From NCBI RefSeq assembly GCF_001632365.1, contig NW_024468515.1, forward strand, positions 832,983 through 896,982: a stretch of DNA of 64,000 nucleotides, written 5' to 3'. This DNA is from Laetiporus sulphureus 93-53 (lineage: Eukaryota; Basidiomycota; Agaricomycetes; Polyporales; Laetiporaceae). The notes below the pieces were generated by a model. That model had not been told where the DNA came from, did no database searches, and saw nothing but the letters and a program-made list of their open reading frames with translations. This document shows, piece by piece, positions 2,258 through 40,467 of this stretch (its first letter is position 1; each line of letters starts with the position of its first letter). The translations under genes and the position numbers were made by a program.

Positions 2258-5200
2258 CTAAATGAACACCTGGAGTGGATGACGGTCATACACGTTCTGT
2301 CCTTCGCTCAGCTCTCCCAGGTCTGGATAGAACGGTACCAAAGCGTCAGCAGCGCCAAGGTATAGCGAATTATAGATACGCCAGTACACCTGTTTAGGAA
2401 CTCGATTAGCGGGTAAGCTCATACAAAAATCAGTAGGTAACGTACCTCGCGAACTTTCCTCGCTGGATGGAACAAGCCTTGCAGGACATAGCTCAACAGG
2501 ATACCCGGGCCGAGAGTCACCCGCATGGCTTCGATGGCTTCCATCACAGCACCGATAACGTGCGGTGACGTCTCGAAGCAATTGGGCCACACGAGGTTCA
2601 TCAAGTGCAGCATGGAATCCTCACAGCCGAGGCCGGCGACGCCGATGGCCAGATGCTTGACAATCGTGCTTGCGGTCTGTCGGTGCACAAGGTCGCGGTC
2701 CGTGAGAGCATCCTCCAACATCGTGACGACAGAGTCCGCGTAGTAAGCCGACTGTGGACCGACGTATTCGAATACGAATGAGAGTGCCTTCAGACATCCA
2801 GTCCGGACATTCAATTCGGCAGTGCGATACTCGTTGAGGATGGCAGGGATACATGTGAAAGCTGGAATGTTTTTGATGAGTGAACATACGCATGCGAGAT
2901 AAGGATTTGAACTTACGACCGCAAGTCTCTGCTACAATAGCGATTGCAACCGTACTGCAGACACGACTCTGTCGCTCTTGTACACGTAGGTTTGTAAGCA
3001 ACACTTGCAATACGTCTTGAGGACCAAGACTCTTGGCAATGTAACCGAAAGAATTGACCGCCGCACGACGGATGCCCTTCTTGTGCGCCTTCAGGAGATC
3101 CAGAAGCTCGAAGCAGATACGCATCCATTCTCGCGCTGGCACAAACTCGGCACCGCGGTCAGCTGGAATTAACAATGTTAGCATGTTATTTGTGAATGGT
3201 GGGAGACTGACGTACCAATGCGACCGATCAGGTTAATCGTGGCCTCCTGCACCTTCTCGTGTCGGTTACGGAGAATCGGCGTCATACGGGGCACTACGCA
3301 CAATGACATCAGCAATAAGCACTTGCATAGACAGAAGTGAGTACTCACGGAGATCCTTCACAGGCGGATTCATTTGCGTCATACCGACAACGTTCGCGAT
3401 AGCACCCTCGGCAGCAATAATACTACCCAGGGTATCGGGGTATTCTTCACCGAGCTGCTCGAAGAGGACGAGACCCAGTTTGCTCAGAAGCTGATCTTCG
3501 CCGCATTGCTTGATGACAACGGCCAGACGTGTGGTGAGATCCGCTGCTTGCTGACGCACCTTGGCGCTCTTGTTATTGAGACGCCAGAGGATGGTAGACA
3601 CGATCTGCGTCAAATACGGCTTGACCCGAATACCTGAGAAGCACAAAGTCAGCACCTGTTTTGCATGGAACGTTGCGACGTGAAGCTTACCCAGTGCATT
3701 GACAACCGTACCAAACCCATCCAGCATGACTTGATCCTCCGTCGTCTGCTCTTGGAAGGCGTAGATAATGCCATCGACGAGCCGAACCTCCAGTCGTTCA
3801 TCAATGTCGGATGCACCGAGAGAAGCAACCACTTTCGTGATTGTCTCCATGACCATCTTGCGGTACGGCTCGGCCTCGTCCTTGAGGTCATTGACAATCC
3901 TTCCAACAATTTCTGCAACACCAGACTTTTGAGCCAACTCGACAGTTGTCTCAACGACCTGTCTGTAATTTCTACGGTCGAGAGCCATGCGACGGACCCA
4001 GAAGGCCTTGAAGAAGTCGGGCAGAATGTCCTGCTTGATGTACTGCGGCGTAACACCTTCGGTGGCGGCGCACTGCTGGACAACCTTCAAGACGATCTTC
4101 TTCATCTCCTCGTCTGACGTTTGAAACTCACGGATGAGGATGATGGTCACCTCCTTGATGTAGTAAGAGACATATTCAGGGTCCATCAGGGGCAAGATGA
4201 AACCGATGGCCTTCAGGAATGCAGCCAGACTCTTGCCGCGGTGCAGGCGGATACCGACCCACAGCGGCTTGAGGACATTGTCAAACGATTCTATACCGTA
4301 GGGCGCAGCTGCCTCAGCCAACGCTGCAAGACCCAAGGCGGTCATTGTCCTGACCTTCTGTTGCTCATCCTGGAGCCCATGCGCGATGCAATCGACGAGG
4401 TTGCGAAGGTGCGGTAGCACGGCGCATCCCATCATGATAGCAATCTGCTGGACGATACGGATACCAGTGTGTCGCGCCTGCCACGACTTCTTGCTCCGGC
4501 AGACAGCTTTCAGGAAAGGCAACAGAGATGGAATACCGAGCGCCGAAGCCACAACTGAGAATGCACGGGCAGTTGTGTTACGCACGTACTCGTCCGCATG
4601 GTCGATATCGGGACGCATGGTGGAGATCATGTGCGCGAGACCAGCTGCTTTGGACAAGTTGGAGATGATCTCACGTCCCTCAACACGGGCATAGTAGTCC
4701 TCATCGATGAGCAGAGGCTCGATGACGACGAGGATCTTATGGACGTATGGCCGAACAAGGTCGTCGAGCTTGTACAGTACGCGGTCGATAACCTTGACAA
4801 GCAGGTGACGTTCTTGGTCCTCCAACGTTCGCTCCATCAGCAAAGGCAGGATCTTGTCAAAGAGAGGACCAGCCCCGAATTCACGGGCTTTGTCTGTGAT
4901 CTGTCGGAGGGCGGTCTTTCGGACGGGCGGCGTGCCGTTCTTGATTTTGAGCAGGAGACGCATGATCTTGCGCTCCTTCATCTCGTCCACCGACAACTCC
5001 GTCTCGTCCTCCTCCTTCAAAATCTTGGCGAAGTACTGCGCGTCCTCCGCCTTAAAGAAAGCGAGACTGCCGACGCCCGGAATCTCAGTGGGCAACTCGG
5101 GGGCAAGACCGGCCGCTGCTGCGAGGTTAGCAGCATCGGAGCTCTCCTGTATCTGGAAGCCGCCAACTTCGGTGACGGGAGTGGCGACCTTCGGGGGGCG

Positions 5201-6058
5201 AATCAGAGGGGCATAACCCGGAGGCGGAGTGACAATGGAATAACCGGTGGCAGGGAGAACAGCGTCCAACTCTTCATCGGTCAGATAACGGTTGTGCTTG
5301 TCCTCATGCATGAAGCCAGGCGCATTCATAATGATGGGCTGCATGGGAATGTCTTGGACAACGGGTGTCTGATCCCAGCGCGATCTCTTGGGAGTCTCAC
5401 TGAGCGCATTGACGTCGGCAGGCGTCGCGTCCCAGCGAGAACGACGCTTCTTAGGTGCAGCCTCCTCGAGAGCTTCCTTGGACCACTCACCACCCTTCAC
5501 CTCCTTGTTCTCCTTATCCTCTGGCTCAGCAACATCCCATCGGCGTTTGCGCTTCGTCCCTGCGAGCTCCTTCGCCGCTGCTTCAAGCTCCTCCCGAGGG
5601 GGTGTCTTGTCTAGATCCATCTTTGCTTTGCCCTCCTCCCTCGCCTGCTTCTCTTTTTCCTCGATTGCTCGTCTGACTCGCTGCTCCTCCTGCTCAAGCC
5701 TCTGCAATCTCATGGCACCCTTATACCCGCCCTCAACATCCTTGCCCTCCTCTACCGCTTTGAACGCATCCTCGCTCTCGAGTGCTTGGCGATTGAATCG
5801 GCGGTTATGGTAGTCGGACTGCCGCGACGCAATCTGGCGCTTTGATGCAGTTTCGGCGAAGGGGTCAACGTTCTCCTCCTCAGCGAGTTCTGCAAACTCC
5901 TGCAGTACTTCCTTTGGTGCCGTGAAAGAGTCAACTAATCTGGGGAATCTTGGGGAGGACATGATGGAAGCAAAGTAAGAGGTGTCAGAAGAAGGAAGGT
6001 CTTGGTCACTAACATCCTCTCGCCGAAGCGATGACCAATCCGGCAACTGCCGCACCAT
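2258..6058 (-). CDS. hsh155: Splicing factor 3B subunit 1 (SF3B1/Hsh155)
   Basis: U2 snRNP component that clamps the branch-point helix in the nucleus. The protein is about 1,150 residues, slightly shorter than the animal one. The N-terminal third is charged and low-complexity, with the RWD motifs of this family ([17 protein letters not shown]). The rest is a HEAT-repeat solenoid that follows the family closely, for example [22 protein letters not shown] and [10 protein letters not shown]. The lysine in DEQQK matches the human cancer hot spot K700. The long first exon (to about 3349) contains one in-frame 57-nt intron (3634-3690) without a stop. Further introns follow, the last at 2390-2445. 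The start at 6058 is the first ATG of the frame. Nothing suggests damage. Identification is secure; individual exon borders were placed by eye from splice signals and family alignment. Confidence 0.95.
3634..3690 (-). other. In-frame 57-nt intron in SF3B1
   Basis: On the minus strand it starts GTAAGC and ends TCTCAG. It encodes 19 sense codons, so it does not break the frame. The family alignment runs directly from VVNALG on one side to RVKPYL on the other, so these 19 residues are not part of the normal protein. Retention would insert them into the HEAT solenoid without a frameshift. Confidence 0.8.
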
Positions 6059-6833
6059 ATTTTAACTCCGAAAACACTCCGCTACTTGCCAGCGCCACAT
6101 CGGCCGCTGACGGCACGTGGGCGCTAGTGACGATGTTAATCGCCCTGCGATTTTAACAACTTGAACGCACATACTGGTGTGATCGTGTATGGTCTGATTA
6201 TCCTCTTCTCTTTTATTAACAGCAATCACAGACCACTAGTGTGGCTTGCGTGGCTACGTGCATATATAGTAGCCGTGCATCTGAATTTCTGAAAATATAC
6301 AGGTGCTACGGTCATTTTCGTGGATGCGTCCACAACGTCCTCACGACAGAATCTGCAATGTATGGCTCTCAGAGTGAATCGATCGCTCTCGGGTGCACGG
6401 AGATGTAAGAGAGCGATGAAAATCCGATGTAAGAGAGTTTTTGAAGTCAAGGTTGGCCATGAAAGCGATGAAAGGTGCCATTCTGGCGCGAGTTGTTTCT
6501 TCGACTCAGGCCCGTGCAATCAAGAATCGATCCTTATCAAAAGACATAGGATATCGCGCCTCCTATCATACAGCAAGCCAATGGTGAGTTGGTGAGCAAA
6601 GTTCACTGATGCTCGCCTGCATGATGAGCCTGTCCGTCGTTATTTCGAAAGGTACGAATATGATACATCAGCTCTATCCGCTCTAACTGCAGAGGAACAA
6701 CAGTCCGAGAAGACGGTGTGCCCACAAACACAAACTTAGAATGCTCATGAGTACTGATTGCATCGTCGGAGAGAAACGATAGCACTCACCTTGAGGCGCC
6801 CCGAATCAAGTAGCCTGATTTCCGCGGCATGCA
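6059..6833. other. Spacer between SF3B1 and MYND copy 1
   Basis: This should hold the SF3B1 promoter and the 3' UTR of the MYND gene. A CACGTG box lies about 55 bases upstream of the SF3B1 ATG (near 6113). I see no gene in it. Confidence 0.5.
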
Positions 6834-7684: not shown

Positions 7685-9038
7685 GGTAGATGAAATGAGG
7701 TCCGGACAGAGGACGGAAAGATGCACGATATCTCGAGCAGGTCAACTGCATGCGGCTGTCTGTGATATACGATCGAGACTGCCACCATGCGCGAGCGGCG
7801 TTTCGCGCCAGATACGAATTCGTCGATGGCTCAGCAATTCTCCGAACCGTTATAGACGTTCGCGGACTAATGTTCTTGCTCTCATTGTCTCTCGCGTCCT
7901 GCGCCTCCACATCGCATCCGAATGGAATTCCGCGTCTATTGCCCTTCTCTTTAGTGCTGTTCTTCCCATCATGCGAGACACAAAGTTGGGTGCCAGGACG
8001 AAGCGGGGTTTTGATCCGTGATGTGAAAGGGTACACTAATGACCGGCGAGTTCGAAGACAACTACTAGGCACATTACATTCGTGCCACTCTCGCATTGCA
8101 TGTTCGTACCTGACAAGACGCTTCCGAAACGTGATTTGACTTGAGGCTGACGAGACGTCGACGATTCCGTGCAGTCTCACAGCGCAGTCGGACTTCTCAA
8201 TACTGGCAAGGGAGGACTTCACCAAGGTTCTCTTCTCTTCTCCTCACAACCTGCGAATGAAGAAGCGCGTACTCGAGTTCAACCCATGCTTGTCAACCAA
8301 AAGTGGCAATCTCTTCTACTGAATCACAATGCCCTTCCCCCCAGCTCGAGCACAACTTCCGAGTGTACTCAGCCTGCTTCAACGTCACATTGAAATCGCT
8401 CGCGCTCGCTTCCCCATGAACGGCTTCTACGCACCACACGTCGCTGTGACAGCCTTGATGCCTCCGCTTCCAGGCCTTTGCTGACCGTTTCAGTAAACGA
8501 TGTATCTGCTTTAATCAGCGTTGAGCTAGGACAAAGATTTGGGATGAAAGTTCGATAGCGAGGAGCGTCACAGATAGCAAGAAGCACATAATTAGGCAAA
8601 TCGAAAGGAAGCAAAGAGCATGCGTCGAGTCGGTCAGTCAGAGCTTGCAAAGATGAGACGAGGGCGATTCTCAAAGTCCAGTCATGTTGAATCCTAGAAC
8701 TCGCCATCAGACAGCCCAAGCGTTGTTACTACGATAGCGGCGGCGAAGATGGCAAGCAGTGAGCCATTGTCAGGTATTCGCATTCGGGGAGCCGGCTTCG
8801 TAGGCATCTTCAGAGAGCATTGCCAGCCATCACGAACATGAGTACTGTGCTTCATCCGTTGATCGTCGTCCCTATAAGGAGACTCGCAGCTGCTAGTGAC
8901 GAAATTTGTTGCACGCCAATCGCGAGGAAAGACCAGCTAGCCGGAGGCGGTGCCCTCAAAGAAGCATGGCAAACATATCCGATCACGTCGCATAGGAATG
9001 AACTAGAACGAGACAAGGCATAGCGTCAAACGTTGAAG
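7685..9038. other. Spacer between MYND copy 1 and the 8.4-kb element
   Basis: No gene that I can support. The open frames on both strands overlap, are arginine/serine rich and look like shadows. The stretch next to 7684 should hold the MYND promoter. It ends at the 4-bp target duplication of the element. Confidence 0.45.
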
Positions 9039-9042
9039 GTAT
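9039..9042. repeat. Target-site duplication GTAT, left
   Basis: GTAT lies directly outside the left inverted repeat and is matched by GTAT at 17460-17463 directly outside the right one. Four bases could match by chance (about 1 in 256), but together with the sharp repeat ends they support a transposition event. Confidence 0.75.
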
Positions 9043-9326
9043 GGCAACCGTGACTGACCAGCTACAAACACGTCCGTATATGGTATATGCCGAACCTCGC
9101 GCCACCCGGCTTTGCGGTAGGACCTCTGTCACTGTCCATTAAAAGCGGAAAAGCGTGCTTCGGATTATGTAAGCGTCGAACCTGTGTAACTGGTTTGAGG
9201 TCATATATAGGCTTTGTGAGGAAAAGATAGATTTCTTCAGGTTAGGAGACATGCTGAGAAGAAGCTCATCGTGATTTTCGGTGAAACGGATGGCCGTATA
9301 TCGCCCTACAATTCTAACTCTCTGCG
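9043..9326 (+). repeat. Left terminal inverted repeat, 284 bp
   Basis: It starts GGCAACCGTGACTG and ends CTCTGCG. It is the exact reverse complement of 17176-17459 over all 284 bases; flanking bases differ at once on both ends. It contains the internal near-palindrome GTATATGGTATATGC. I see no open frame conserved in it. Confidence 0.95.
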
Positions 9327-10369
9327 CGCCAACTGTGTGGCTGGCAGCTCCCAGTGTGATGACGGCTCGCACGTGACGTGGCCACAAATGTACTGAGGAG
9401 CGTTGCAGCTCTCCTCTGTGTAGAATGGATCTCTCAGTGACACCGCCTGTCGGGATGACTACGAAGACTCGACCACGGGACTACGGGTCATGTTCGGCAG
9501 GTGGAGTGTCAGCTGATATAGCTTGGTACCGCTGTCTCCTCCTCACCATTCCCCCCTTTGTCCATCTTACTCGCACGTCCTCCACTGCATGCAATCCGTC
9601 CCCCTCGCACCTGACGCCCTCCGAGCGGAGACCCCTCCCTCCCCTCCAATGCCCACAAACGCCACGCCCCACCATCAGTTCGTGACGCTCGCCTATCCTA
9701 TCGCACCTGCATTAATATCCTACCAGCACTTACCTCACAGCCCTAGTCACCACCCCGTCAGAGCAGCCCACCTAGGCCGTTCATCCATACATGCACATAT
9801 CCGCCCAGGGAGTGCCAGCTGCGTCAGATACCCGTCCCTCGCTCACTCATCCCGCTCCTGCTCTCATACACTCTCCGTCCCCCTGTTCTGTCTTCCGCAC
9901 CTGCTCTCCCGCTCATGCACTTTCACCCTCATGCTCTAGACTATCTCGCTTCCAGCCCTATCATACAGCCTCCGCATTGTACCTTACAGCCTCCTACTCT
10001 CCTGATCGACCTTTCTCCCTCCCGCCGCCCGCCGCCACGCTCAGGACCTCCTCTCCTTGGCCCACGCCCCACCTCCTAGAAGGTGCTCGCTTCGTATCTG
10101 CCATGCGCATGCCAGGCGTACATGAACGTGTAGAAGCCGCCTGTGCTGCACTTCATTCACGAATGCTGCGAATAACATTTTCGTCCATCCAGCACCGCGC
10201 CGCGCCATCGATTAAGCGTGTCAACATTGAGCAGGAGCTATAATAGCTGCGCGCGAACGTCCCCGAGCAAGGTGGCTAATGGGGTTGGAGAGGCGGATAG
10301 CAATTGTAGCGTCAATTAGAGCAGTATCACACGGTCGTCGAGAAAAAGGAGGTGTAAGGTGAGCACTGC
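9327..10369. other. Pyrimidine-rich segment inside the 8.4-kb element
   Basis: The plus strand from about 9530 to 10110 is strongly C/T-rich, with many CCTCC and CTCC runs. Its open frames encode only proline/serine/histidine-rich low-complexity sequence in several frames at once, which is what such composition gives by chance. It could be a promoter or leader for a rightward transcript; tracts of this kind precede many basidiomycete genes. No domain is visible. Confidence 0.4.
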
Positions 10370-10714
10370 ATGTTCCGCTGCGAATACCCATGTTCAGTTC
10401 CAGAACTTTCCCATGCTATGCACTGCCAGCTTGCATGCTCCCCCCACCCTCAACGCGCCATCCCTGCAGTGCAGACTATCACTACGCCTACTCCCGCTCC
10501 CGCCACCCTCTCACTCAACGACCTCTTCCACTTCCTCAAATTACCCTACATCCCCACTGCTCACACCGTCCGGATCATCTCCCGTCTTGCCCTCGGCTTC
10601 GCACCTCGTGAACGCAGGTCCTTGCTCTCCATGTACGCCGTTCCTGATGTCTGCGTGGCCCTCACCATGATCCATATCCTCGCCGACAGTCGACGTGCTG
10701 CCCTCCTCGTTTGA
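10370..10714 (+). CDS. Hypothetical small protein in the element
   Basis: A 114-residue open frame that begins at an ATG in the sequence TGCATGTTCC. The first 40 residues look arbitrary, but the rest, from LSLNDLFHFLKLPYIP to TMIHILADSRR, has the mixed composition and amphipathic spacing of a folded helical protein, unlike the proline-rich frames around it. I do not recognise the family. The reading may continue into another frame after about 10670 through an intron or a frameshift, because a second open frame (10695-10946) follows at once. It runs opposite to the transposase and kinase genes. It could be an accessory gene of the element, captured host sequence, or chance. Confidence 0.3.
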   Translation: MFRCEYPCSVPELSHAMHCQLACSPHPQRAIPAVQTITTPTPAPATLSLNDLFHFLKLPYIPTAHTVRIISRLALGFAPRERRSLLSMYAVPDVCVALTMIHILADSRRAALLV

Positions 10715-11412
10715 CCCCACCCCCACCAACAACTCTGACGATCCCCAGCTCCAGCGCCAGCTTCCTCCGGTGAACGAGAAGTCTGCAGTTGCAAACGCTG
10801 ACGGCGAGGCCTTGTGCAACTGGGCTGCTTTCGTGCACGCGTACGCAGTCGGCCGCTTGGACTGTCTCTGCACCCCGCACTCCCCTCGCTCACAGCTCCA
10901 GGCACCCAGTCATCTGGCGCAGGCGACTTTGGGTTCGACCTTTTGAGACAGATAACATTCCTGATCGTGGATCCGCCCTTGGAACCCGGAGGGTTTGTTT
11001 CTGTAGTTCGAGAGATCTGTCGCACTCTGTCGCAGAGATCGCAAGATGTTTGAGTCCCTGTGCCAGATACATCCACCTGAGATGCTGTGCAACACAGCAT
11101 CATATGATCTCACAGTGTGGATGGCGAGGTCGATGTCTGGAGCGCGGAGGGTGTCGGAACTGAGATCAAGATAAACTTTGACGGGGAGCCAGTTGAACAG
11201 CAGGCCTCATCTTGCGATAAAGAGATGATGCAGGTGTATGACCACATGAGGCAGCCGACCATGTGGTTGCTAGGCTTCGACGACTTGCACCGAGGCATCC
11301 TTGCAGTTCCTGACCCAGCATCGCCCGTACCGTCTCACAGATCAGGGGTTCGCAATAATGATTCTTGTTATTACGCTATTTCTGCTCTTTTGTATCGACA
11401 ATCAGTGTGGTT
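10715..11412. other. Segment between hypothetical ORF and transposase 3' end
   Basis: An open plus-strand frame (10695-10946) without recognisable domain runs into this stretch. The part next to 11413 should be the 3' UTR of the transposase gene. Nothing else is visible. Confidence 0.35.
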
Positions 11413-13202
11413 TCAATGAAACCATCCGTGATCCTCGTCCTCCTCATCCTCTTCAGAGTCCGTGAAGTCCGCCAACTCGAGATCATCAGGATTGCCTTCA
11501 GGTGCAGAACTGCCGCGCTTGCCAATAAGCACATCTCCATTGCGCAAATCACGAAGACCGGGTAATACTTCGATCTTCTCGTTCATGAGCCTGTCGAACG
11601 TTGCTGCATGCTCCGCGATTGCAGCGGAAAGTTCAGCATTTCCTTGAAGACGATTAAAGTGGTCGAGCATCTGAAGGTACACATCCCAAAATGATTCACC
11701 ATGAACCCCTGGCCTTCCGATCTCATTGTAGATCGTCTGCGCATGCTCCTCGAATGCTGAAGGAACCAGTTCAAAGATAGGGTGGGTCGGAGGTGCCCAC
11801 TGTCGCTCCACTTCGTCAATGAGATCAGCCGGTGCATTCACCTTCGACACGCAGCTATCAGTGGCCTTTCTAGATGTAATAGCACGATGGTATGATCACG
11901 GACCTTGAAATCCACGGCATTGAAATCTTGAGGCTGGTTCACAATGAGGATTGGAATGCCATGCGGGAGAGACTTGTGCTTATTTGCGCGCCGTGGAGTC
12001 AAGTTGAATTGCTTTGTCCAGTCGTCAAGCTCAGCTTGTAGCCATGGTATGGCTAGCCAGCGGAAGATGAGCCTATTGGGCTGTCAAGACGACTGAAATT
12101 TGTCGGTACTGCAAGGCACTCACACTTCTAGAGTGCTATTTACATCATACCATCCTTGGTCAACGCCGTACTGAAGTATCTCCTCGAATCCTGGCTTGAA
12201 GTCACTGTTCAATACCGACCACATGATTTCTGGTTTGATATTCATGTGCGCCCTCATCCAGCGGTGCTGAAGCGTGTCTGCAAGTGAAGGATCAAGACGG
12301 TGCCGAATAGTGGTGTGCGCATTTGCGACACCAAAGTTCTCTGACCCTGGATCGCTCTGCGTTACTAGAGGGACGGCTGCATCATATATGATGAGCTGCA
12401 GACTGTGCAATGCATGGATCACAATAAAAATGCTCACCTTTGAGCTTACGGATCGCCTCGATGTAATAGCCAGTGATGAGCCGAGGATTTGAGTTGTTCC
12501 ACCAAATCTTCATCCAATTGATGTAACCAGAGAAGGTGTCAACGGAGACGTGAAGATACAAGCCAAAGCGACCCCATTTGTCGTGCTGATCTTGCGCCCA
12601 TATGTCATGCACACCAGTTGCCCAGAAGCGTCGTCTCTTAAAACGTCGGTGGCGACGTGCCTGGACAGCTTCAGGCTCGATCTGGCGTAGATATTGAGCA
12701 ACCAGTGCTCTGAATGCCACGAATGAGCAGTGATGATTTTGAGAAGCAAACGGTATGCAGACCTTGGTGCATGGACTTTGAACGTCAAAATTAGCGACTT
12801 GCGTATGGAGTCTGCACCGCGATGTGGAAATTTTGCCTTGATTGCATCGACATACTGTGCTATGCTCTCCATAGTATGGCCTTGCTGGCGTGTGCTAAGA
12901 AGCCCCCACTGTTTCCTGAATCGTTTGACGGAAGAGATACTGAGGAAACATTTCAGTAGATTGCACTTTCTTGCTTGAGTAGTGGTACATACCTCAGACC
13001 ATAGAGCTCCACGTCAAAATGCTTGATACAACAGTGTGCTATCTGGCCATCGTTGAGCCCAAGATTGTAGAAGAACGTCAGGACAGGTTTTAGCTCATCG
13101 GCTGGGGCTGTCAGACGTCGATTGTGCCTTCAATGGCTATAACGAGCAGAGAATGTAATACGTACGACAAGGCTTATGCTGATTTCGCTGTCGTTGTTGC
13201 AT
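11413..13202 (-). CDS. Integrase-type (DDE) transposase of the 8.4-kb element
   Basis: Seven exons give about 485 residues. The N-terminal region (about 1-110) has a helical DNA-binding appearance and family motifs such as ELYGLSISSVKRFRKQWGL and STRQQGHT. The RNase H-like integrase core follows. The first acidic residue is in AQDQHDKW (about residue 150), the second in QSDPGSEN (about 208), and the Glu in NIKPEIMW (about 249), so all three catalytic residues are present. After it come the conserved FRWLAIPWLQAELDDW and RRANKHKSLPHGIP blocks and an acidic tail ending DHGWFH. This matches the integrase core family common in Agaricomycetes. No stop or frameshift is needed to read it. Start at 13202 chosen because it is the first ATG in phase with the second exon. 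It lies tail-to-head behind the kinase gene, with 200 bases between them. Confidence 0.85.
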
Positions 13203-13402
13203 CTTCGAGCTGCAGTGACATTCCACAAAAGCAATGAGCGCAGTGGCTAGGTGGCACGTGAAAAGTGAAGTGGCCAATACTGGCCGCAATTTGAAGCCAC
13301 CTCGCGTCTCAACACCATTTTTGATGTGAACAATGCAAATCGTTGGGTTTGGAAAGCATGCAATTAATTGTCAGATAAAGATTGAAAGCTGTTTAGATTT
13401 TA

Positions 13403-16400
13403 CTACTGCATGCGACTGTCTTTTTCAGCTCCTACTGCTGCCGCCATTGCATCTCTGATCTTCAACTCGACAACCTCCCCCTCTTCCATTTCATCATGAC
13501 CGTGGACACGTGCAGACTTAGTAGAAACCTCTCCTGTTGCCTGGACACTTTGCTTGGACAGTGCAGCCAAAGAAGCGGAAAATATCTCCTTCTCCATAGT
13601 ACTGGTTCGGAGACGAGGATCGTTCACGGATGGCACAAACAGCGGGCGAGCAGATTTGAAACTGGCCTTCATATCGTTTTTGCCGAAGTCCTCAAAGATG
13701 CCATAGTGCTTACAGAAATTGTTGCACTCGTGAGCCATGTCGAACTCGTCCAATGCTGCGGACACATTGCCATCACTGAAGATTGTGCCGAGAGATCTGT
13801 ATCAACATGCCACCGCACTATATCAAATACTGCTATTGTGTAAAAGAAGGTGATGGAGGCGTACGCATCTGAAATAATTTGTGGATCAGACAAAAGAGTG
13901 CTGCCGCCTGGTACGACATCGAAATAGAAATGAGTAGAGTATTAATTGAGCTATAGGATGTAGTACTTGCCTTGAAAGTCAGAGACGAAGAGCAGGCGCT
14001 TCGTCTTCAAAAACTGTATATGCTGACAAAAGGCCAGGAAGTCAGCGCGGTGTTGATCATCTTCATCAATCATTGCGAGTGGAGTAGGCGTGTCATTGTT
14101 AATATATTTGCGCCAGCGTCCCTCGGCTGTTGAATCGATGTACTGTTCAAGCAAAAAAACCTGGCGGCGGCGAGATGGGTTCTGATCGTTTATGTCGCTT
14201 GCATCCTCCACTGCCAAGCCGACACAAACAAATTGCAGCTGAGGAATGGTGAATGGAGGTGGTCCACGTATGACATCTTCCCTTTGTATAAAAGCGTAGC
14301 AAAGCTGCATAAGACCGGCAGCCCACTGCGCACAGTTGACCTCCACCGACAGCAACTCTGCCTGCTTTGCAGCATCATAGAACATAGGATGCGGGGATGC
14401 CATGGCCCTATCACGCACAAATGCACGTTTAATGGCCACATAACCAGTACTACCGAATGCAGGCAGTGGAGGACTGATTGTGCCGAAGTGCGTGACCTTG
14501 AATGTGCCTTGTTGGAACTTTGATTGCGGATCATAGAGTAGATTGGTCTTGACAGGACTGACATTCGCACGCCATGTGCCCTTCCTGGTTGCGAGCTCGG
14601 TATATGTTTGAAAGGGACAGACAAACACCAACACCGGAATACTGGCAATGTTCACTGCGAACACGGAATCATGAGTGGCATGCTCCTCAGCGCAGAGAAT
14701 GACGTACGAAGGGACCGGATTGCATTGCGGCTAGGAGCTTTCTGCAACGCAAGTGCAGATCGAAGCTGTTCATCGTCTGGTAGCTCAAGTGCCGTCACAT
14801 GTTCCTGTTGAGTTTCTGTGTCTCTGCAACTAGCGCTAGTATCCAGTGCCTTACTTGCATCAGCGGCAGGAATCTCTGCATCTTCAGCTTCAGCATGAGC
14901 AGACGTCTTTGCAGCTGGTACTTGACATTTCCGGTCCTTCTTCGGGGACGCATTTGCATTGTCACTCTAGATTTGATGAAACACACGTTCAGTTACATTG
15001 ATGTATTGAGAGGTCACACGCTTGGTTGAACTTACTTCATGGCTAGCATGCTTCCTTTTGTGTAATTTCTCGCTATTGCTTTTGTGGTGACGGTCAAAGA
15101 AGTTGAAATTTTCCATAGCACGTGTTTCGTGTTGAGTTTCCACATTGTCTTGTGCAAGCTTCGAGTTCTGTATCTCTCATATAGGTAAAACTGTTCAACT
15201 TTATCTTCAAAGTATGTGAACACGCACCGACGCAGTCTTATAGTTCCCATATTCCTTTCCTGCCATACATTCTTCCTCACCTTCACTGATCCTCTCGCCA
15301 GTTTCTCTTGCTTCTTCTTCCATCAAGCGTTGATGCAATGCTGCCTTGTACAATTCAATCGGAAGTTCAAGATATATGTCGATAGCGCCTGCTTTGAACT
15401 TTGATTGATTGCCCAACTTTCCTCGCCCGGCAGTGAAGAAGGTAGCGGATACAGCGTCCATATCACTCATCAAATCTGGAGGTGGTACTAGCTCAACCCA
15501 ATCTTTTGTACGCAGGCGAAAATCGTTGATTGAGACCGCCTCGCATTTTGACCAGTCGATGTATTGTGAGACGAGCGCTGAGTAAACTATCGTCTTGAGG
15601 TTGCGTGCACCGATTCTAACTGGGACAAATGCAATAGAGTCGACAATGTTCTGATAAGGAATTTAGAATGCGGCAGCTCATTTTGATGTACAGAAAAGCT
15701 TACTGAGACGACTTTTGGAGCCTTTTTGCCTTCCTCCCATGTCATCATCTTCGCCTTCACAACAATAACCTCACCATTTGCACCAGCATATGCAAAGCTT
15801 TGCAGGCGAGCACGAAGATCATTGTATGTGTCATGGGCGGCAGTATATCCAGGACGCTCATTGATAAAGGTGGATGCGTAAGGAGTGGGATAGATGAGAT
15901 GATTTGCCGACTGACTGCTGGCCCCAGGCAGGAAGACGACTGGACCTGTACGCAGTGGACCAGATCGTGGTGGTGGCATCCGGTGTTCAACGATTGGTGG
16001 ATAGTTACGTGACGGTCTGTTGCTGCCTCTGACAGCACCAATGGGGCGAACGGGATCAGCAGTTTCTAACCAAAGCTCATGTGAGCCATGCTTCGCCCAT
16101 GTCATCTACAAGAAATGCACATACCTCCACGCTGTGCGGCAGCAACCTGTCTATGAATATGCACTCTCTCGTCATTATATGAATGCCCCACATGCCTCGT
16201 CGGGAGGTCATTCATGCTTCTATATAAGTTGGAAGCTGCGAAGCCAATCATTAGTACACTAGTTCATTTGATAGACGACAGGGGTAGAATTTGATTACGC
16301 ACCAGAAGACAGAGCACGAATTGTGGTAGGTTTACTCTGATAGCGTTGAAAGCAGTCGATGCAGAGGTGCTTGCCAGGCTTTGTAGGGTCCTTGTTGCCC

Positions 16401-16534
16401 ATGTATTTGGTAGGTACTGGCACATCGGACACTTCGTTCGGGCAGTTGTGTGCCTCACACCGCTGGTTTGGGTTCTCGGTCGTAAATGTCGCAAGAAAAT
16501 CAGCTGAGACAGTGTGTTGAGGCATCTTTAGCAA
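13403..16534 (-). CDS. Alpha-type (atypical) protein kinase, element cargo
   Basis: A multi-exon gene. The first exon encodes a cysteine cluster, CEAHNC with LCIDC about 35 residues later, perhaps a zinc-binding head. The middle (15.9-14.7 kb) is variable. The C-terminal catalytic domain is an alpha-kinase: a lysine in YVAIKRAF, FTIPQLQFV, GRWRKYINN, then VSDFQGG, LLSDPQI and IFSDGN, and finally HECNNFC, which matches the zinc-binding HxCN...C of eEF2K and TRPM7. The order and spacing follow eEF2K (DIQG, DPQIH, FGDGN, HACN..C). Key residues are present, so it is probably active; the substrate is unknown. The intron at 13908-13970 is a GC-AG intron. The gene ends in an acidic then basic tail. 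Start may be 16534 or the ATG three codons later. Its position between perfect inverted repeats suggests it travels with the transposase. Confidence 0.85.
13908..13970 (-). other. GC-AG intron in the alpha-kinase gene
   Basis: The donor reads CAAG|GCAAGT and the acceptor ACCAG. Removal joins VSDFQ to GGSTLLSDPQI, exactly the conserved catalytic block. Using the only nearby GT would break the frame and the motif. GC-AG introns are a known minority class in fungi. Confidence 0.75.
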
Positions 16535-17175
16535 GAATCAATGGCTTTGAAGCAAAAGAAAGACTGTATAAATGAGTGTGGGCAAAAATGACCGTGTCGA
16601 TGTAAAGATGCAGGTCAAACTCTGACGGGCGCCAGAGTCTCTAGCTGACGCGCAGTGCAAGTTGAGCTGCCGGTGGCCACATACTTGCTCTTTCATGATG
16701 CATCCGAGTAGATTTTTATATCAGAACATCACTACCCTTCGACCCGTTGTGCCTTTATGTGACTCAGAGTACTGTCATGTTCAAAAGACATTGTACGCAT
16801 AAAGGTAGCGGTAACAGTATCACTGGGCCACAGCACACTTGATATAGCTCTGTGAAACCATGTAAACTGTAGACAGTGCATACGTCATCCATGCTCTTAC
16901 CCAATAACCACCTGTGTACGCTGCACTGAACTTCAAGCTTCAGCGTGCTACAGCATGCACCACACAAGGACTGCACGGTGGGGGTTGGAGCGTATCGTCG
17001 GCATTGACGGTGAGGCTGAGTGCTTGTAAACTGGTATGTATGATCGCATTGACAAGCCCACGACAAGTTAGCAGCAGTGAGGCGAAGCCAAATCTATTAC
17101 AGGTAGACAATCAGGCTTCCATAGGCATGTTCCATGGATAAATTGGGACTGCCTAACAGGGGAAGCGCCCGTCAA
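16535..17175. other. Kinase 5' region inside the element
   Basis: No gene. This should contain the promoter of the kinase and possibly the subterminal binding sites of the transposase. Its inner edge is the right inverted repeat. Confidence 0.4.
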
Positions 17176-17459
17176 CGCAGAGAGTTAGAATTGTAGGGCG
17201 ATATACGGCCATCCGTTTCACCGAAAATCACGATGAGCTTCTTCTCAGCATGTCTCCTAACCTGAAGAAATCTATCTTTTCCTCACAAAGCCTATATATG
17301 ACCTCAAACCAGTTACACAGGTTCGACGCTTACATAATCCGAAGCACGCTTTTCCGCTTTTAATGGACAGTGACAGAGGTCCTACCGCAAAGCCGGGTGG
17401 CGCGAGGTTCGGCATATACCATATACGGACGTGTTTGTAGCTGGTCAGTCACGGTTGCC
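17176..17459 (-). repeat. Right terminal inverted repeat, 284 bp
   Basis: It begins CGCAGAG and ends CGGTTGCC, the exact reverse complement of 9043-9326. Outside it the sequence is GTATGAAGG, giving the GTAT duplication (17460-17463) shared with the left flank. Confidence 0.95.
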
Positions 17460-17463
17460 GTAT
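17460..17463. repeat. Target-site duplication GTAT, right
   Basis: Partner of GTAT at 9039-9042. It directly abuts the end of the right inverted repeat. Confidence 0.75.
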
Positions 17464-17958
17464 GAAGGCAGCCGCGGAGCAGGATTTGTGTCAATGAAGT
17501 ATTCGTCAATGAGTTAAGCCAGGTACATAATCTCCTGGGAACATTGAACGGATGAGAGACAACAGCCGGATTGTCACAAGGCATGAACTTGGTCTTCAAT
17601 CGCCAGCATATGGTCGCATAATCCTAAGACTCGCTGCTGCTAATCGCAGCGAGTGGCGAGGGAACCTTGGCCTGAATATCGGCCCTGGGTCTCCCCTGGT
17701 CTCCCATGCATGCCGTGCACGCGACAGCCAAGAATAGTGGGGTACATCGCCGCCGAGCAGCGAATTTGTAGTGCGCAAAGAACACAAAGACGGCGAGCAG
17801 GACGTGGGACGCGACCAAGACACGGTCGCCGCCGACTCACGGGACCCTTCGGAGCCGACGTCGGGCCGGAAAACCGACCGATCTGATCATATACACGAGC
17901 GCTGAATGCGGTCATAGCGGCGGCTACGCTCTTTCTCGCTGTGCTGCTCGTCGTCCAA
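17464..17958. other. DUF1275-A upstream region
   Basis: Promoter and 5' UTR of the gene starting at 17959. It is GC-rich, especially after 17,600. No separate gene is visible. Confidence 0.45.
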
Positions 17959-18909
17959 ATGCGCGTCCTCGCCGTTTGGCCCAGCGCAGGCCGCTGTTTA
18001 TACCACCGCGGGACGCGCCCCGTCGCCTCCCTCGCGTTCCTCCAGCGTCCACGCACTCATTATGCGTGCACGCGACCTCTCTCGACCACGCCTCCCCCAC
18101 GCGCGCCAGCATCCGAGCCGCTCTCCAACTCCACGCCAGCTGGCACGTCGCCAATCCCACCCCCGCAATCTCCCCTAACAAAACCGACACCGAACAACAA
18201 CGCCCTCCTTCTCTTCTGTCTGTCCACCGGCCTCGTCGACAGCCTGACTTTCGCCGTCTCGGGCGTGTGGTGTGCCTTTGTCACGGGCACCACCGTGCAA
18301 CTCGGAATGGACCTCCCCGCTCTGCTCGCTGACCTCTGTGCCAACGCGCCCGATCTCACTTCTGCGTTCACGATATTCGCTGCAACGCCCACCTCTGAGC
18401 GCCTCGCGGCTCTCTCGGGTTTCCTCTTCGGCGGCTTCACCGGCTCGCGCCTTCCCCATTTCATTACGCCCGCTATCTCCACTGCGGTCCAATCAGCCCT
18501 GCTCGCAGCCGCAGGTGCGGTGATCCTGTCGCATCCTGGGGTGGCGCACTTGCCTGACCCACACATCACCCTGAGTCTGATCTCGACGAGCATGTCGCTG
18601 CAGGCGGCTTTGGTGCAGCGGTTGAAGACGCCGTACGCTACTAGCGTTGCGTGGACGAGCGTGTGGCTGAGCGCTGTCGCGCCGGGACCGACGACCTCGC
18701 ATTGGAAGCGCTTTGCGGGTCTTGCGGCGTTGATGGCCGGTGGCACCTTCGGGGCGGCTATTTTGAGGCTCTGGAAGGAGGACGGGGAGGAAGGTGAAAA
18801 GGAGGTCTTGCACCGTATGGGATGGGGATTGGTCGCGGCGGGAGCGGTCAAGGGATTCATCTCACTGATGTTGCGGAGAAGAGGGAAGAAGGGACTTGTC
18901 CAGTTGTGA
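17959..18909 (+). CDS. DUF1275 (YoaK-like) membrane protein A, likely mitochondrial
   Basis: Intronless, 316 residues from the ATG at 17959; the frame is open further upstream but has no earlier ATG. The first 50 residues are rich in Arg, Ser, Pro and Ala and contain no acidic residue until about 48, which suggests a mitochondrial presequence. The DUF1275 core starts around residue 70 with LLLFCLSTGLVDSLTF, VWCAFVTGTTVQLGM and later SMSLQAALVQRLKTPYATSVAWTS. There are about six hydrophobic segments, the last ending in a basic tail, RRRGKKG. DUF1275 proteins are predicted membrane proteins without an established function. A paralogue (DUF1275-B, 39661) lacks the presequence. Confidence 0.9.
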   Translation: MRVLAVWPSAGRCLYHRGTRPVASLAFLQRPRTHYACTRPLSTTPPPRAPASEPLSNSTPAGTSPIPPPQSPLTKPTPNNNALLLFCLSTGLVDSLTFAVSGVWCAFVTGTTVQLGMDLPALLADLCANAPDLTSAFTIFAATPTSERLAALSGFLFGGFTGSRLPHFITPAISTAVQSALLAAAGAVILSHPGVAHLPDPHITLSLISTSMSLQAALVQRLKTPYATSVAWTSVWLSAVAPGPTTSHWKRFAGLAALMAGGTFGAAILRLWKEDGEEGEKEVLHRMGWGLVAAGAVKGFISLMLRRRGKKGLVQL

Positions 18910-37884: not shown

Positions 37885-39660
37885 TGCTTCAGAGGATGCT
37901 CATCTCAGTATTGGAGAACTTCGAAAGTGGCAAGGCTTGCCTTGAGACGGGTCCTTCCTCACAAGATTACCGGTCTGCCATCGCTGACGCCAAGTAAAGT
38001 CGTCTTCTGCGTAAGTGCCAATGGACGACATGAGGATGAAACAACTTGCGGCCGTATTGGGGGGCGGTAGAGTGTTCCGGCTATCCTTCGAGAGTGGCCG
38101 TACTTATAGTATGAGCCTTCTGGCTCAGTTGATACATGGTAGATCCTGCCGTCCAACGCACCGCACCGACTCCTTGTGCCCACCGCGTGTCAGCGGCGTG
38201 TATATCATATCCCTCTCTTTGGGGATCTTCTGTCCCTCTTCTTTTGTGTATAATCTTATGGACCGTATTGCGCAATGGCTCCATCGGCACCTGCATCGTG
38301 ATGATTGTACCTCGCGGACAAACCAGCCGAACTGCTCATATTGATAGCATTCGAATACTGCGGTTCGTAACTGCAGCACTATAAATAGTCATCCGAAGGG
38401 TGTGCTGCCAAGAAGATTGATCAGTCTACAACGAGACGTGTGGTACTTGAGATAACGCCTGTCCTTTAAACCAGCGTATCAGTTGTATAGCCCCTCAACC
38501 CACGTAATAATTTGAAATCTGCGATGGCGACCTCAGATCCGTTTCTTTTGAGAAATGTGCACCAAGTTCTATGAGAGTGAGGGAATCGACGTGAATTGAG
38601 TGCTGTCAATCGCACGGCGTTGCCCCACAAGCCAAGATCCACTGCGAAAGACCTGTTCGCCTCGTTGCAGGCGTATGCATCACATTACATGAGGGTGCGG
38701 ACTGCAATGTAGCGTGGTGGCTTCCGTGTGATTCAGAGTGCGCATAGCTCCGGCCGAGGTTGAACCTTCATCGAATATTGTAGCGCCTATCCCAGAGAAA
38801 ATATCGAAGCCAGGCATAGGGGCCTCAAGAACGGGGTAGACAGCCTCTAAAGCAACATAAATAAGTATTCGGCCAGAAGAATTCTTCGCGGAGTTAATTG
38901 CACTTCACCTGTGGGCTCATAGGTTGAATCGATAATGGTTATGCTCCCACAACTTGAAAGAAACAATATATCATAAAAAGCTGACAACCTTTCGGTATCT
39001 GTAACATATTATGAGACATCCGGAGAGCTGTAGACTCTGAGATTATGAGCAAGACCGGCCCTGCAACATTGTTTCATTGAATAGGAACGCCTCCCGAGAC
39101 CAATAGCACTCCTTGCAGCAAGGTGATACGATTATGGTGGTTTCAACAGAACCATAGCAGAGGTTTCCAAAATCAGTGGTCTGCCTTGCACACGAATGAC
39201 CTCGAAGAATTGATCACTATGCTGTGTTAGAACAGGCAGGGAGTGGCCCCCGCATGGCCCGGGTGGCGCCCGTTTGCTTGAGCGCGGTCACGTGATACTT
39301 TTTTTTTTCCTCCTGCTTTTGGAGTCGCTGTCAACCCATTCCTGCTGCTTGGAAACTCAGCCGAGTCTCCAACTGTTTGTCATCCTTATGTGAGTGAATA
39401 GAGCACACCGGTCACTTGGTCAATGAACAACAACGGCGAAGATTCATGCGATAGCAAGCATTATAGATGACCCTCCGTCGAAGAGCGCCGGTCCCAGAAG
39501 TCACCGCAGAAACCCGACGGCCGCGGCTTGCGGCGGGACGGCGACAGGCACAGGTCATTTTTACCTCCTCCTCCTACCACAAGGCTGACACTCACTATCG
39601 CTATACATGACGCCCGCCAGGCTTGCCTTGCTCTAATACTGGTTGTAGCATATTACCGCC
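37885..39660. other. Spacer upstream of F-box and DUF1275-B genes
   Basis: Divergent promoter region of 1.8 kb. A possible first exon of the F-box gene lies near 37,980-38,050. TCACGTGA occurs at 39288-39295 and a T-run (10 T) follows it. A 10-codon uORF (39607-39636) precedes the DUF1275-B start. No further gene seen. Confidence 0.4.
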
Positions 39661-40467
39661 ATGTCCTCCGACCACCAAGTTGAATTTGGTCCCGAAGCCG
39701 ATGTTGCCCCACCCACCGTCGCCCTACTCATCCTCTGCCTCTCAACGGGCTTCATCGATAGTCTTACCTTCGCCGCCACCGGCGTTTGGTGTGCTTTCGT
39801 CACCGGCACCACCGTACAGCTTGGGATGAACGCCCCCGGCCTCTTCGACGCCCTCACCTCGTCCCAACGGCCCACGTTCAAGCACGCCCTTTCCCGCTTC
39901 GTCGCATCCACCGCCTTTGCACGTATCGTGGCTTTATCGGGCTTCCTCTGCGGTGCGGCGGTCGGCTCGAACACACCTGTCCGCAATCTCTCTTTAACAG
40001 TCTCAGGCGCCGTGCAGGCCGTCCTCCTCGCATGTGCTGCAACGCTTGTGCTCCAGAGCCTTTCTGGCACGCCTGACCTGCACATCGGCCTCCCGCGTCC
40101 CCATGCGGTGCTCGCACTCGTTTCTGCTAGCATGTCTCTCCAAGCTGAGCTTGTCAGGCGTGCACACACTCCGTTTGGCACCAGCGTCGCGTGGACCAGT
40201 ATCTGGCTTGATATGGTCGATTCGCGCTGCTCTCGCATGCAAAGGGCGAAAAAGGCGTCGGGCCTTATGGCGCTGGTCTCAGGAGCCGCAATAGGCGCAC
40301 TGACCCTGCGATGGGGGCGATCGCCAGAGGAAAGCGATAGCGAGGCAGCCATACAATTGGCAAGAAGGGTCGGCTGGGGATTCGTGGTCGCGACGTTGGT
40401 CAAGGTTGTCGTCGTAGGGATGTTTTGGAGGAAAGAGAGAGCTGTTGGTAGGATACGTCTCGGATGA
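39661..40467 (+). CDS. DUF1275 (YoaK-like) membrane protein B
   Basis: Intronless, 268 residues. After about 20 polar residues the DUF1275 core begins: LLILCLSTGFIDSLTF, VWCAFVTGTTVQLGMN, later SMSLQAELVRRAHTPFGTSVAWTS. Six or so hydrophobic segments and a basic end (WRKERAVGRIRLG). It is clearly paralogous to DUF1275-A at 17959 but has no presequence, so the two may sit in different membranes. Function of the family is not established. Confidence 0.9.
   Translation: MSSDHQVEFGPEADVAPPTVALLILCLSTGFIDSLTFAATGVWCAFVTGTTVQLGMNAPGLFDALTSSQRPTFKHALSRFVASTAFARIVALSGFLCGAAVGSNTPVRNLSLTVSGAVQAVLLACAATLVLQSLSGTPDLHIGLPRPHAVLALVSASMSLQAELVRRAHTPFGTSVAWTSIWLDMVDSRCSRMQRAKKASGLMALVSGAAIGALTLRWGRSPEESDSEAAIQLARRVGWGFVVATLVKVVVVGMFWRKERAVGRIRLG

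Follow-up and report, generated by a model that had tools for sequence, protein, structure and literature searches.

The closest described relatives of the transposon considered here are the TET+ families of the IS3EU superfamily of DNA transposons. The element in question occupies positions 9040-17462 of a 64,000-nucleotide stretch of the genome of the polypore Laetiporus sulphureus 93-53 (the window), and carries an α-kinase gene together with a transposase gene. According to the published description of the TET+ families, all of them carry an α-kinase gene, and they occur in rusts and in Tuber indicum, with the transposase and kinase genes in opposite orientation and a TET/JBP gene between them that is thought to aid escape from methylation-based silencing (Kojima 2025; PMC12730594). 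The rust families have 6-bp target-site duplications (TSDs), terminal inverted repeats (TIRs) longer than 30 bp and ends of the form TAYGG..CCRTA (PMC12730594), and IS3EU elements are described elsewhere as having TA..TA ends and TSDs that are usually 6 bp long (PMC10045372). A further relative, Styx of Zymoseptoria, is an IS3EU-related element of approximately 8 kb with TIRs of 36 bp, a 6-bp TSD and several genes, the extra ones bearing GATA, CCHC and DUF3577 domains (PMC10853768).

The Laetiporus element shares with the TET+ families the termini and 6-bp TSD of the rust members and the presence of a transposase and an α-kinase in one element. It differs from them in that both genes lie on the minus strand rather than in opposite orientation, and in that only 200 bp separate the two genes, with no TET gene detected; a search with PF12851 gave no match anywhere in the genome at E values up to 0.1. 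With Styx it has in common an IS3EU-related transposase, TIRs, a 6-bp TSD, a length of about 8 kb and the possession of several genes, whereas its TIRs measure 287 bp rather than 36 bp and Styx carries GATA, CCHC and DUF3577 genes, with no kinase mentioned in the portion of the paper available.

A preliminary description of this DNA held that no described element was known to have this gene pair, a statement overtaken by the report of an IS3EU transposase together with an α-kinase, so the pair itself is already in print (PMC12730594). A literature search did not find a polypore element of this kind that lacks TET and has both genes on one strand, nor a genome in which both α-kinase loci lie beside an IS3EU-like transposase, nor the idea, put forward here, that α-kinase expansions may be transposon cargo. 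The reading favored here, with a probability of about 0.68, is that of an autonomous IS3EU transposon from one lineage of which the α-kinase has long been a part.

Boundaries and classification of the element

Contig C6, which contains the window, has 1,085,884 bases and belongs to an assembly of 38.6 Mb and 124 contigs. A combined scan for TIRs and TSDs, a comparison of the ends and a re-reading of the letters all place the duplication TGAAGG at 9034..9039 on the left and 17463..17468 on the right. The left TIR (9040..9326, plus strand), which starts TATGGCAACC, is complementary to the right TIR (17176..17462, minus strand), which finishes ..GGTTGCCGTA, at 286 of 287 positions, and the sole mismatch is a T/C difference at base 3. 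The perfect 284-bp inverted repeats recognized earlier form the inner part of these 287-bp repeats. The GTAT tetranucleotide proposed earlier as a 4-bp duplication had to be abandoned: its letters are present on both sides but straddle the ends of the element, each tetranucleotide being made up of three terminal bases and the single flanking base next to them. With termini of TATGG..CCGTA, the flanking duplication is 6 bp long. In the scan, the window scored 23/24, compared to 15/24 for the best of 20 shuffles of the same locus and 17/24 for the best shuffle over all ten transposase loci of the genome. Ginger1 and Ginger2, at which a 4-bp TSD would have hinted and which have TSDs of 4 or 5 bp (PMC10045372), were ruled out by the 6-bp length.

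One full-length copy of the element is present in the genome. A second insertion of 234 bp lies on another contig (C30:392293-392526) with its own 6-bp duplication, ACTAAC. Its sequence matches the left end exactly over 59 bp and, after a further 3 bp, the right end exactly over 172 bp. Because it retains the T/C asymmetry of the ends of the window element, it is most simply interpreted as a deletion derivative of the same family, which would have been mobilized in trans. The preliminary description asked whether other copies have both genes between the same repeats and different 4-bp duplications; the short copy has identical ends and a different duplication, of 6 bp. With up to 3 mismatches, a 26-base terminal pattern was found five times: C6 and C30 have two occurrences each, and C34 has a lone truncated end. 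The same pattern read backwards gave no match in this genome at that tolerance. The existence of a single full-length copy would suit an assembly artefact as the origin of the inverted repeats or of the two-gene unit, but this is exceedingly improbable because a copy with identical ends and a different duplication lies on another contig. The matching 6-bp duplication outside the repeats, the IS3EU-type ends and the description by others of a similar gene pair (PMC12730594) further oppose it.

The transposase gene (11413..13202, minus strand) comprises seven exons that, when spliced, reproduce the public protein P0001 exactly, with 483 amino acids and one terminal stop. It matches PF24764 (rva_4) with an E value of 3e-8 and 33.9 bits against a cut-off of 26, the model being 99% identical to P0001. 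Residues D150, D209 and E250 are identical in all 11 aligned transposases, which were picked among the 120 listed of 475 matches, and by analogy would form the catalytic triad. The earlier recognition of an intact DDE transposase with three acidic residues therefore stands with respect to the frame and the residues, their catalytic role being assigned by analogy.

Assignment of the element to the IS3EU type is close to certain. The termini of both the window and the C30 copies, TATGG..CCGTA, agree with the TA..TA ends of the superfamily and the TAYGG..CCRTA ends of the rust families, the TSDs are of 6 bp at two independent insertions (TGAAGG and ACTAAC), and the rva_4 score identifies an integrase-like DDE transposase. 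An autonomous cut-and-paste transposon of IS3EU type would best explain the element, because its TIRs are long and have ends of this type, 6-bp duplications flank both the full-length and the short insertion, the frame of the integrase-fold transposase is intact, and the short, deleted copy has the same ends. As judged from knowledge of the family, the transposase would bind the TIRs, excise the element and join it to the target across a 6-bp stagger.

The α-kinase gene

The kinase gene (13403..16525, minus strand) lies within the element and on the same strand as the transposase gene, in agreement with the preliminary description. It contains nine exons and eight GT-AG introns of 53-69 nt, encodes 877 amino acids, and ends in a single terminal stop 200 bp ahead of the transposase start. 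Ten related proteins align with the greater part of the spliced product, which supports the nine-exon model. It matches PF02816 (Alpha_kinase) with an E value of 8e-13 and 49.3 bits against a cut-off of 21.3, and its catalytic and zinc residues are conserved in 11 of 11 divergent aligned proteins, so that the predicted α-kinase with its motifs, as first noted, is upheld. Its layout includes a putative N-terminal Cys-rich finger, a ubiquitin-like region, for which a weak fold match was obtained in a relative, and an α-kinase domain with its zinc module. It has in common with the TRP-channel kinase (1ia9, which we take to be TRPM7), MHCK-A and eEF2 kinase the α-kinase fold and the DxQG, DP and HxC..C motifs. 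These enzymes have N-terminal regions unlike that of the window kinase and, to our knowledge, have no association with transposons. Because no annotated protein corresponding to the window kinase occurs among the matches listed, to which length limits apply, the gene may be mis-annotated or absent in public protein sets.

Association of α-kinases with IS3EU-like transposases

A search of the genome with PF02816 detected two loci, the window and a locus on contig C57, and each adjoins an IS3EU-like transposase. The C57 kinase (approximately 138237-139299) consists of five exon pieces that read without a stop, with a Pfam E value of 5e-16, and is barely alike to the window kinase (blastp E value of 1.1). 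The neighboring transposase piece (C57:139486-140443) lies on the opposite strand, convergent with the kinase, and is interrupted by a run of N; by tblastn, it matches P0021 with an E value of 3e-11 and the window piece with an E value of 0.02. The locus (C57:138237-140443) resembles the window in its α-kinase beside an IS3EU-like transposase, and is unlike it in the opposite, convergent strands, the very different kinase, the incomplete transposase and the failure of the scan to find TIRs or a TSD. Because the two kinases are so little alike and each adjoins such a transposase, two α-kinase types that, by sequence comparison, diverged long ago both sit by IS3EU-like transposases. Within C57:135114-140499, the kinase lies just downstream of a putative non-LTR retrotransposon frame, judged by eye to contain reverse transcriptase and RNase H, and a 505-base N run is located near the kinase locus.

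Pooled tblastn and rva_4 searches gave ten IS3EU-like transposase loci, on C5, C6, C9, C18, C19, C27, C30, C40, C45 and C57. At four of the ten, a 6-bp duplication accompanies ends that are clear or partial. Two loci have the same kind of ends as the window element and stronger rva_4 scores: C9:572403-578356 (5954 bp; ends 22/24, TATGCTGTTCA..; duplication CCAAGC) and C19:365581-371928 (6348 bp; ends 24/24, TATGCTGTTCA..; duplication ATCACC). Both hold extra open frames, and no α-kinase was found in either. One of the C9 frames matched DUF7368 below its cut-off. A possible 2.6-kb element surrounds an rva_4 piece at C30:181792-184434, with ends of 18/24 and the duplication GCTGAA.

Searches beyond this genome gave ten related kinases, and for at least four of these the contig is identical in size to that of a same-species transposase among the matches listed. 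The transposases compared are the 120 listed of 475, and identical contig size serves as a proxy for a shared contig, not for adjacency. The cases are two kinase and transposase pairs of Earliella scabrosa (contigs of 1,970,191 and 1,680,546), one of Lenzites betulinus (contig of 1,134,843; locus tags 811473 and 811477) and one of Daedaleopsis nitida (contig of 2,393,311). If a genome of 40 Mb is assumed, at least four such matches would arise by chance with a probability of 8e-5. Across five pairs, including that of the window, kinase and transposase distances are correlated at 0.79, and only the true ordering among 120 gives a value that high. The earlier suggestion that the kinase family is spread by transposons is strengthened in part, in that the pairing recurs at both loci here and with size-matched contigs for at least four of ten kinases elsewhere among the matches listed.

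Several observations weigh against a lasting partnership of kinase and element. No α-kinase was found at eight of the ten IS3EU-like loci, in up to about 10 kb of flanking sequence, and no size-matched transposase contig was seen among the matches listed for six of the ten outside kinases (those of Rhodofomes, Arthromyces, Mycena, Tulasnella and Hygrophoropsis and one further protein), some of whose contigs are tiny. The C57 locus lacks TIRs or a TSD in the scan, and only tblastn detected its transposase; the rva_4 profile search listed neither C57, C5 nor the window itself. The correlation of distances may partly reflect species relationships.

Host-like stretches and the origin of the kinase

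The preliminary description recognized only two genes between the repeats. That count holds, but the remainder is not empty: three stretches, all located in the interval from the left repeat to the stop codon of the transposase gene, resemble host loci on sequence comparison. The first (9531..10161) is 82% identical to C5:685895-686477, and none of three frames examined there matched a Pfam family. The second (10595..10933, plus strand) is 83% identical to C14:401548-401887 and colinear with the third (11094..11295, plus strand), which is 84% identical to C14:396921-397125. The host copy of the latter is a histidine-kinase-type ATPase segment (HATPase_c; E value of 3e-8), and the element's own frame there has no Pfam match. 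The two C14 pieces keep the order and orientation of the host, at a spacing of 160 bp in the element compared to approximately 4.4 kb in the host. Because these pieces are 82-84% identical to host loci, the autonomous element appears to have captured fragments of host genes; gap-repair copying, a process known in other DNA transposons, may have been the route.

Such stretches lend some plausibility to the view that the kinase, too, was captured passively from the host, as the histidine-kinase pieces would have been, and has no role. This is quite unlikely: the kinase is a full-length, nine-exon open frame, its key residues are kept in all 11 divergent proteins, and it recurs with related transposases.

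Possible roles of the kinase

The kinase is best regarded, as far as comparison of sequences can tell, as a putative accessory regulator of one IS3EU lineage rather than a chance passenger, because divergent relatives retain its catalytic and zinc residues and because it is found repeatedly next to related transposases. It is quite probably under selection as a component of the element. The conserved active site, the recurrence with related transposases and the occurrence of two kinase types favor such a role, as does the co-occurrence published for rusts and Tuber (PMC12730594). The eight loci without a detected kinase indicate that it is dispensable for the IS3EU superfamily overall and, together with the mobility of Styx, for which the available portion of the description names no kinase gene (PMC10853768), would make it an accessory regulator and not a necessary part.

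In the service of the element, the kinase may phosphorylate the transposase or a host protein of chromatin, silencing or the cell cycle, and its N-terminal region may direct it to the target. Counter-silencing and control of the transposase are the leading ideas and are guesses, and any particular target is doubtful. Large fungal mobile elements carry genes as host-beneficial cargo, and the element could instead spread because the kinase helps the fungus. This is improbable, if somewhat less so than passive capture; the intact, conserved kinase frame would fit it, as would the unrelated extra genes of IS3EU-related Styx (PMC10853768), but the only two kinase loci found in the genome both lie by transposases, and no host-fixed kinase copy without a transposase was seen in this genome.

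A broader extension of the accessory-regulator reading is that basidiomycete α-kinases are largely a transposon family, carried and spread by IS3EU elements and long used by them as an element-encoded regulator combining finger, ubiquitin-like module and kinase, and that expansions such as those of rusts represent transposon cargo. This is offered tentatively, at somewhat less than even odds. The α-kinase family is reported as highly expanded in rusts (PMC4469406), and PF02816 is enriched in wheat rusts with a ratio of 2.34 and q of 0.035 (Table 3 of PMC5295586), where enriched domains are read as adaptation through gene duplication; the α-kinase passages of both papers, in the portions available, do not mention transposons. 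A great expansion in Agaricomycetes, as assumed at the outset, was not found in the literature examined, which reports rusts, and the present genome has two loci. If α-kinases are IS3EU cargo, the rust family expansions would have to be counted anew, and a DNA transposon that encodes a signaling kinase would provide an experimental system for transposon self-regulation or the disarming of a host.

Neighboring genes

Two similar membrane-protein-like frames, presumably DUF1275 paralogs, are found at 17887-18909 and 39649-40467 of the window, and the element ends approximately 420 bp ahead of the first. A large frame at 3266-6061 is presumably that of the splicing factor SF3B1.
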